From: Nanoarchaeota archaeon
Lineage (GTDB): Archaea > EX4484-52 > LFW-46
NCBI GenBank assembly: GCA_018897155.1
Contig: JAHILE010000045.1
Coordinates: forward strand, 5,402-69,401
Direction: 5' to 3'
DNA: 64,000 nt
Under the pieces are notes generated by a model. It did not search any database. It saw only the letters and a program-made list of their open reading frames with translations, and was not told the origin of the DNA. The number at the start of each line of letters is the position of its first letter. The stretch's first letter is position 1. The translations under genes and the position numbers were made by a program. This document shows, piece by piece, positions 9,137-11,300 of the stretch.

Positions 9137-11110
9137 ATGCTCATCGGCGAAGTTTTCGGAAGCACAGGAACAAAGACTTTTAATTTCCGCGCGGAAAAGG
9201 AAGTGCGCAAACTTGATTTTGTAGTTGTTGAAGGCGAGAACAAGACCTGGGTCCTATCGCAGGTTGAAAATATTGAAAGCAGGCCTGACGGCAAGAACAT
9301 AGCATTTGCAAAAGCCATCGGATACAGGGAAGACGGAATCCTGAAAGTGCCTATGACGCCGATAAAGTCGAATGCAAGAGTCTATTCTGCAGACGCGGGC
9401 ATAATTCAGGACACGCTTAAGCTTGACAAAAACGGGCTTTATCTCGGTTGCCTTGATGCGAACAAGGAAGTGCCGGTTTATATCGATCCGACAGATCTCA
9501 TCTCGCGGCATGTCGCAGTCCTTGCGGCAACAGGTTCCGGGAAATCATATACGGTTGCAGTTATTCTTGAAGAGCTTCTTGAAAAGAACATACCTATTGT
9601 TATAATAGATCCCCACGGAGAGCACACCTCTTTAGGGGTTGCAAACGATAATGCAGAAGAAATCGAGAAGGCGCAGAAATTCAACATTCTCTCAAAAAAC
9701 TATCTTGTTGTCGAATACAGCCCGGACACAAATGTCAATTCAGGTGCGCAGCAAATATCCTTTTCCGACAAGAATCTTGAAGCATCTGAAATACTTCATC
9801 TTCTTCCGACAAAGCCGTCGTCCTCGCAGATAGGTGTGCTTTACAGCGCGATAAAGGAACTGAAAGAAATGGGCAAGCCGTACGAGCTAAAGGATATAAT
9901 CAAGGCAGTTGAAGACAACCAGAGCGCATCAAAATGGGCTGTTATAAACATGCTTGAAGTTGTCCGGGGCACAGGGCTTTTCTCGTCAAAGCCGACAAAT
10001 ATCCGCGAGCTGGTCAAAGCAGGGCAGGCATCGATAATAAATCTGCGTGGCATAACACAGGAGATACAGACAGTTGTCGCATATAAAATTATCGAGAAGC
10101 TTTTTGAGGAACGTAAAGTTGGCCGAGTTCCGCCGATGTTTTTGGTGGTTGAAGAGGCGCATAATTTCTGCCCTGAAAAAGAAGTTCGGGCATCCTCAAA
10201 AATCATACGCACTGTTGCATCTGAAGGGAGAAAATTCGGCTTCGGCTTGTGCGTTATTTCGCAGAGGCCTGCTCGGGTTGACAAGAACGTGCTTTCACAG
10301 TGCAATACCCAGATTGTCCTTCGCATGACAAATCCGAATGACTTGAAAGCGGTTTCTTATGCAGAGGGGCTTACAAGTGGAATTGAGAAAGAGATAAAAA
10401 ATCTAAATCCCGGAACAGCTTTGATTTTGGGCCGCGAATTTCCTATATTTGTGAATATCCGAATCCGAAGAACAAAGCACGGAGGCGTCACAGTCAATAT
10501 CAGCGAGCCTGTAAAAGAGGTTACTGAACTTTTAGCATTCCGGAATTACGAGAAAAAATACATCGAGAAAAAATTCGGGTCCGTTCATACGATATATTAT
10601 CCGTGCTGGCGCATATACGGCGAGAAGACCTACCTTATAGAAGCGGTGCGTGGCAAAGTGATTTTCGAGGATTCTGATGCGACAAAAGAGTGTGACATAG
10701 AGCTTAACGATGATCATGCGCTGATTCTGAGCGAAATGAAATTCAACAGGACTTTGCAGGAGCTTCTTGAGCGGACAAAATTGACTGAAGACGATCTTGT
10801 CAAGGCGCTGAAAGAATTGCGCGATAAAGGCTATGTAAATGAAAAAGAGGAGAATGAGAAATTCGTTTATGAAAAAACAGAAAAAAGCGTTTTTCGCGAC
10901 TTTGCAATAGAGCCTGCAACAATTGAAAAAGACAATAATTCAGAGACGCTGAAATTCGAGTTCACAAAAGAGGATGCTCTGAAGCGCGCGAAGCTTTTGT
11001 TTGGCGCGGTTGATAACATCGAGCCGGTCTATTATACATATTATCTTGACGAAAACCAGAAGTTCTTGATTGACGGCGTGACCGGGATAAAGAAAGAAAC
11101 CGGGAATTAG
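9137..11110 (+). CDS. herA: HerA-family DNA translocase/helicase
   Basis: A 657-residue hexameric ATPase of the HerA/FtsK group, which in archaea works with NurA in DNA end resection. An N-terminal HAS-barrel (about 1-110) is followed by the ATPase core: Walker A AATGSGKS (130-137), IIDPHGEH (156-163), Walker B MFLVVEEAHNF (334-344), then ASEGRKFG and ISQRPARV. The C-terminal 180 residues are an extra region with a possible winged-helix segment (LTEDDLVKALKELRDKGYV). No nurA gene adjoins it, which is unusual for archaea. A TATA box near 9105-9115 is centred 27 bases upstream. Confidence 0.9.
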   Translation: MLIGEVFGSTGTKTFNFRAEKEVRKLDFVVVEGENKTWVLSQVENIESRPDGKNIAFAKAIGYREDGILKVPMTPIKSNARVYSADAGIIQDTLKLDKNGLYLGCLDANKEVPVYIDPTDLISRHVAVLAATGSGKSYTVAVILEELLEKNIPIVIIDPHGEHTSLGVANDNAEEIEKAQKFNILSKNYLVVEYSPDTNVNSGAQQISFSDKNLEASEILHLLPTKPSSSQIGVLYSAIKELKEMGKPYELKDIIKAVEDNQSASKWAVINMLEVVRGTGLFSSKPTNIRELVKAGQASIINLRGITQEIQTVVAYKIIEKLFEERKVGRVPPMFLVVEEAHNFCPEKEVRASSKIIRTVASEGRKFGFGLCVISQRPARVDKNVLSQCNTQIVLRMTNPNDLKAVSYAEGLTSGIEKEIKNLNPGTALILGREFPIFVNIRIRRTKHGGVTVNISEPVKEVTELLAFRNYEKKYIEKKFGSVHTIYYPCWRIYGEKTYLIEAVRGKVIFEDSDATKECDIELNDDHALILSEMKFNRTLQELLERTKLTEDDLVKALKELRDKGYVNEKEENEKFVYEKTEKSVFRDFAIEPATIEKDNNSETLKFEFTKEDALKRAKLLFGAVDNIEPVYYTYYLDENQKFLIDGVTGIKKETGN

Positions 11111-11119
11111 AAAAACATA

Positions 11120-11300
11120 TGGACACGGCGCGATTTTCATCAGTTCTGGGTAGTTTTGCGCCTCGACGAAGTCGAGGTCGCTGGTTTTTCTCTTTATACC
11201 CAGATTTGTTTTTCTCTTCTTCAAAAGAGAAAGAAACTGGATTTGAACGCGCGGCCTCTGCGTTGCGAACGCAGCGATCTACCAGCTGATCTACGTGCCC
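11120..11300 (-). tRNA. tRNA-Ala(CGC) with an intron in the T loop
   Basis: The 5' exon (11300-11242) gives acceptor GGGCACG, a D arm, the anticodon arm CTGCG-TTCGCAA-CGCAG (anticodon CGC), and the T-stem strand GCGCG followed by TTCAAA. The 3' exon (11133-11120) supplies T, CGCGC, CGTGTCC and the discriminator A. Together they form a 5-bp T stem, a TTCAAAT loop and a 7-bp acceptor with one G-U pair. The 108-base intron is 11134-11241. Around the junctions, TTCA pairs with TGAA between two 3-base AAT bulges on opposite strands, with the T stem outside and CAGTT/AACTG inside. That is a bulge-helix-bulge, and cutting after AA in each bulge restores the loop exactly. The intron contains the hairpin CCTCGACTTCGTCGAGG (11161-11177). 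No CCA is encoded. Confidence 0.85.

Follow-up and report, generated by a model that had tools for sequence, protein, structure and literature searches.

A dispersed repeat with a predicted triplex-forming core in tRNA T-loop introns of a genus of DPANN archaea

The intron that splits a tRNA-Ala(CGC) gene of a Nanoarchaeota archaeon is one copy of a dispersed repeat that occurs in this genome and in that of LFW-46, and we consider it probable, judging from the anatomy of the copies, that this repeat is a mobile, triplex-forming DNA element that persists inside tRNA genes since it is cut out of the RNA by the splicing endonuclease. As a T-loop intron, it adds a member to a known class; what is new is a dispersed repeat whose triplex core covaries and which resides mainly in tRNA introns. 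Its splicing, triplex formation and movement are what we infer from the sequences. The gene lies in a window of 64,000 nucleotides (assembly GCA_018897155.1, contig JAHILE010000045.1, positions 5,402–69,401 of the forward strand), to which all coordinates below refer, and the window is part of contig 45 of a home genome (G000) of 1.43 Mb and 96% completeness. The sole congener within the collection is LFW-46 (G001), which has been placed in lineage LFWA-IV of the GTDB phylum EX4484-52 of DPANN, sister to Nanohaloarchaeota (PMC8561730). Both are metagenome assemblies, the repeat loci were read as stretches around search matches rather than as whole genomes, and some of the host tRNA anticodons were assigned by eye.

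The tRNA-Ala(CGC) gene is encoded on the minus strand (11300–11120) and is complete once the 108 nt of 11134–11241 are taken out. An earlier note on this DNA had claimed that the exons rebuild a tRNA-Ala only after this removal, and the joined exons indeed give a full tRNA of 73 nt that ARAGORN calls as tRNA-Ala(CGC), with a 7-bp acceptor stem including G3:U70, the anticodon CGC, a 5-bp T stem (GCGCG/CGCGC) and the 7-nt T loop TTCAAAT, which is the loop that the cut had been said to restore. The 5' exon (11242–11300) comprises positions 1–59 and the 3' exon (11120–11133) positions 60–73, with the discriminator A73 at 11120 and no encoded CCA, so that the intron interrupts the T loop at the 59/60 junction, a position already known from other archaea. 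The strict bulge-helix-bulge (BHB) described previously was recovered as well: a central helix of 4 bp is formed by TTCA (11244–11247) and TGAA (11136–11139), both on the minus strand, between two 3-nt AAT bulges with the cut site AA/T (11243–11241 and 11135–11133); the first inner pair is a C-A mismatch, which is followed by CAGTT/AACTG. The precursor folds with a z-score of −4.5 relative to shuffles, and the orthologous gene of the congener has its intron at the identical site, the whole precursors being 84% identical. Standard searches had been predicted to miss the gene, and this was borne out: ARAGORN made no call on the unspliced gene under any intron setting tried, and the Rfam tRNA model gave one marginal match (11231–11300, 30.9 bits versus a cut-off of 29) that misplaces the 3' end, which runs into the intron. 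A second intact tRNA-Ala(CGC), which had been named beforehand as the observation that would speak against this reading, was not found in the 96%-complete home genome, where the other Ala gene seen is Ala(UGC). The data support the view that the locus is a tRNA gene whose T loop is interrupted at 59/60 by an intron with a strict BHB, and splicing of the intron is predicted.

The cell's single tRNA splicing endonuclease should, from this anatomy, cut the 108-nt intron at the BHB. EndA matches above the cut-off were obtained in 27 of 34 genomes of the order, with one gene each, and a second EndA gene was found in none of the 34. Relative to the M. jannaschii EndA, this family has an insertion of 5–6 residues (FGKWIDEEK...), and the loops of the broad-specificity EndA enzymes of ARMAN and crenarchaea lie at the place of that insertion (PMC12397907); the single EndA of the home genome carries the insertion at this broad-specificity loop position. 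In all 12 aligned EndA sequences of the order (L021, L119–L129), the catalytic Lys of the classical triad is replaced by Ala (NIRA for SVRK). No other tRNA splicing endonuclease was found in these genomes, which are nevertheless rich in introns of tRNA genes.

In a DNA search, the intron but not the tRNA body recurred elsewhere in the home genome with 74–91% identity, and nearly all full-length copies lie inside the T loops of other tRNAs. In the two genomes together, the repeat occupies the identical T-loop site in 18 tRNA genes of differing identity (Ala, Ile, Asp, Thr, Pro, Ser, Leu and Arg). The hosts in G000 are Ala(CGC), Ile(GAU), Asp(GUC), Thr(GGU), Pro(GGG), Pro(CGG), Leu(GAG) and Ser(GCU); those in G001 are Ala(CGC), Asp(GUC), Pro(GGG), Pro(UGG), Pro(CGG), Ser(GGA), Ser(GCU), Leu(CAG), Leu(CAA) and Arg(UCU), and a further G001 copy is found in the anticodon loop of Ser(CGA). 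A script that evaluated the possible cuts ranked the 59/60 junction, which leaves the T stem complete and the loop with 7 nt, first in 18/18 T-loop cases, and in the 17 T-loop cases of the family besides Ala(CGC), that cut always restores a T stem of 5 bp and a T loop of 7 nt. The central BHB helix has all four pairs in 16 T-loop cases and three of four in 2, and it covaries with T-loop base 57, being TTCA/TGAA in some copies and TTCG/CGAA in others. T-loop introns are common in this lineage and not exceptional. At the same site, Arg, Glu and Thr genes (L067, L075, L078, L115, L065) contain T-loop introns that are mostly unrelated to the repeat, and tRNA-Pro(CGG) (L061, L100) has introns in the anticodon loop and the T loop, in G000 apparently also in the D loop. 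The idea that Pro(CGG) might be a split tRNA was dropped, as its 5' exon turned up upstream, along with additional introns. Another repeat, AAAAGCCGAGAGC...GCGAACGGAT, lies 3' of many tRNA genes in both genomes (e.g. L058, L070, L078, L106).

Outside tRNA genes, six intergenic copies were found in G000 and G001, and all six directly follow the TAA stop codon of a protein gene in sense orientation; two of them are without strand 3 of the core described below. Sense orientation also prevails in the T loops (16/18), the exceptions being the introns of tRNA-Ser(GCU) in both species, in which the repeat is inverted (one orthologous pair). The core that intergenic and inverted copies have in common ends near a hairpin, and the T-loop copies have an additional 3' segment, which base-pairs with the linker and makes the BHB complete. 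Behind the TFB gene of G001 (L135), a different palindromic repeat begins a few bases past the stop codon; it has the same ATGCGGTTTC end and contains AAATCCG, and by this example the post-stop repeats may form a wider class.

The repeat core of about 85 nt consists, in this order, of a pyrimidine strand, a purine strand, a linker, a mirror purine strand and a hairpin. In the Ala(CGC) intron, strand 1 (TCTTTCTCTTTT) lies at 11223–11234, its Watson-Crick partner strand 2 (AGAAGAGAAAAA) at 11209–11220, the conserved 11-nt linker (CAAATCTGGGT) at 11198–11208, strand 3 (ATAAAGAGAAAA) at 11186–11197, and the hairpin (CCTCGACTTCGTCGAGG) at 11161–11177, all on the minus strand. Strand 3 is the mirror image of strand 2, as its sequence in 5'–3' direction equals strand 2 read 3'–5', and it sits downstream of the strand 1/2 hairpin. 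Over 23 copies with 12 positions each, 261 of 276 triads are T-A·A (194) or C-G·G (67), and strands 1 and 2 form 266 Watson-Crick pairs with a single wobble. Four strand types exist, with G at positions {2,6,8}, {2,7,11}, {4,7,11} or {2,4,10}, and strand 3 has the same set in nearly every copy, with the four types representing few independent events because the copies within one type are related. The mirror match of strands 2 and 3 is 94% at register 0 and at most 66% at other mirror registers, and among permutations of distinct pairs only 1 in 100,000 was as good; the Ala(CGC) copy itself matches at only 10 of 12 positions. An alternative pairing as direct repeat was rejected, since the best direct register reached 76% versus the 94% of the mirror. 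A motif scan of the whole window matched the Ala(CGC) intron alone, among all fetched loci it matched only this repeat, and 10 simulated windows gave no match. At the level of sequence, the three-strand covariation is the signature of a class II (Y-R-R) intrastrand DNA triplex; strands 1 and 3 may instead be related directly, by parallel Hoogsteen pairing, which would predict nearly the same covariation. Purine-motif (class II) intrastrand triplexes form in DNA and are reported not to form in RNA (PMC4666352), and the repeat therefore most likely acts as single-stranded DNA. Other hairpin repeats, in many cases linked through AAGCTT, lie nested within the repeat at fixed points (L107, L109, L114, L062, L064, L053, L060), namely in the linker after CAAATC, just before strand 3, or in the loop of the last hairpin, and they leave strand 3 intact in most copies.

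The alternative that fares best among those we considered, although we regard it as unlikely, is a spread by RNA, in which the excised intron would enter other T loops by reverse splicing and then return to the genome as a copy, with strand 3 as a by-product. The identical site of every T-loop copy with its BHB-ready ends would be expected from such a route, and so would the nearly constant sense orientation. However, inverted copies exist, the intergenic post-stop copies are without the 3' BHB part, and it is not evident what the mirror covariation would do in an RNA in which the purine-motif triplex is reported not to form (PMC4666352). The sense-strand bias fits RNA-borne spread or an RNA role as well as it fits a mobile DNA repeat. 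Such a role, as guide, regulator or 3' stabiliser, defines a second and somewhat less likely alternative, in which a functional intron RNA was copied together with its tRNA host and the conserved fold is an RNA fold. Eight aligned T-loop introns do share a three-way junction of 40 pairs, of which 93% are kept and 16 have changed on both sides, and 0 of 500 shuffles were as good in cells paired, double changes or covariation score. One of its helices, P3, can form in the RNA of the Ala(CGC) intron between 11197–11204 and 11145–11152, and G-U pairs are tolerated in P3 and hardly in the strand 1/2 helix, the copies compared not being independent. The position of sense copies directly after stop codons would suit a functional RNA as well. 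Against this alternative, Rfam matched only tRNA within the window, inverted copies are not expected, and strand 3 is unpaired in the RNA fold, yet it covaries with strands 1 and 2. The G-U pattern fits a picture in which the putative triplex belongs to the DNA level, and the junction and the BHB to the RNA level.

The two species differ in which sites are filled. In G000, the repeat interrupts the T loops of Ile(GAU) and Leu(GAG), whereas in G001 the Ile(GAU) T loop and that of the orthologous Leu(GAG) gene are intact. Conversely, the HerA-like gene (Pfam; 9137–11110, plus strand) that ends 10 bases from tRNA-Ala(CGC) has at its end, at 11108–11119, a TAG stop and a spacer without repeat, whereas its G001 orthologue is followed by an intergenic copy. 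Orthologous post-stop sites are free of the repeat in the other species, and three of four comparable sites have TAG or TGA without and TAA with the repeat. At five shared tRNA sites (Ala, Asp, Pro(GGG), Pro(CGG) and Ser(GCU)), the repeat type differs between the species, and copies thus seem to replace or convert each other often. This is what conversion would give if old, vertically inherited T-loop introns had been homogenised between tRNA genes without any mobile element. We nevertheless judge this third alternative improbable, slightly more so than the functional RNA, as it accounts neither for the two intact orthologous T loops nor for copies that are inverted or outside tRNA genes, and the model search described below found the repeat in no relative outside the genus. 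That the tRNA-Ala(CGC) locus is a dead pseudogene with an insertion, as the failure of ARAGORN and Rfam to see an intact gene might suggest, is highly improbable, given its perfect exons with G3:U70, the absence of a second Ala(CGC) copy among the genes found, and the conservation of intron position and BHB in the congener despite a changed intron sequence.

The repeat is genus-specific. A model search (E≤1e-5) gave 10 matches in the home genome, 13 in LFW-46 and none in 32 other genomes of the phylum, and an exact 24-base pattern scan of a collection of 84,980 species, which misses diverged copies and may not contain the home-genome records, matched LFW-46 only. A weak model match in G018 (27 bits) does not have the features of the repeat and was treated as chance; a viral origin was likewise discarded, the one viral pattern match being a chance hit that lacks all other parts of the repeat. 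In other families of the phylum, short unrelated T-loop introns occur at the same site in Ala(CGC) of G007 (L003) and Ala(UGC) of G004 (L009), and the Ala genes of some further families have no T-loop intron. By these unrelated introns, the T-loop site seems to be an intron hot spot in the phylum.

How archaeal tRNA introns are gained has been in question since similar introns were seen in different tRNAs of Thermoproteales. Those introns resemble our repeat in that similar sequences are shared by tRNAs that differ in identity, that both canonical and noncanonical sites are occupied, and that splicing is by BHB and the gain recent. In contrast to them, our repeat stems from DPANN (EX4484-52), has copies also outside tRNA genes, and is a structured intron of about 110 nt with a three-strand motif, for which intact and occupied orthologous sites are seen. 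The exact pattern scan with LFW-46 as its only match argues against a close relationship to the Thermoproteales introns. With the class II triplex repeats BoxC, PIT and TM-ECO of Enterobacteria (Holder 2015, PMC4666352), it shares the pyrimidine-purine-purine mirror order on one strand and dispersed copies that vary between close relatives. Unlike these, it has an A/T-rich stem of 12, an 11-nt conserved linker and an extra hairpin, its strand identities change in concert between copies, and it sits in tRNA introns; its second loop, the 11-nt linker, is longer than the 1–6 nt of the ITxF loop criterion. REP/RAYT systems are similar as short palindromic dispersed repeats, with GTAG/GTGG in the linker and Y1 transposases in the genomes, but the GTAG of the archaeal repeat is not at a hairpin foot. 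Y1 transposases are present in both genomes and were rejected as movers, since the flanks of the four genes have no repeat-like ends, and neither a clear target-site duplication nor a clearly matching transposon end was found.

In summary, we favor a mobile DNA repeat that, as comparison of the two genomes indicates, has reached the T loops of many tRNA genes and the bases immediately behind stop codons. Its core has most likely been under selection for folding back into a class II (purine-motif) triplex, which most likely acts in single-stranded DNA during replication or transfer, and copies would persist in tRNA genes because their ends complete a BHB together with the T loop, leaving the mature tRNA unharmed. 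With slightly less than even confidence, we go further and propose a mobile element of single-stranded-triplex DNA that has tRNA T loops as its main refuge and ends that complete the splice motif, an archaeal counterpart of the eukaryotic introner elements and a natural triplex backed by concerted changes in three strands. The three-strand covariation represents unusual evidence of selection for a triplex in natural sequence, and as class II triplexes are reported to be restricted to DNA, the level at which the repeat acts is testable. The sister species offer intact and occupied sites as well as inverted and non-tRNA copies, by which the moving unit can be delimited. For annotation, the finding means that ordinary searches overlook many tRNA genes of this lineage, and for the evolution of tRNA genes, the repeat family offers a tangible example of how such introns can be acquired.
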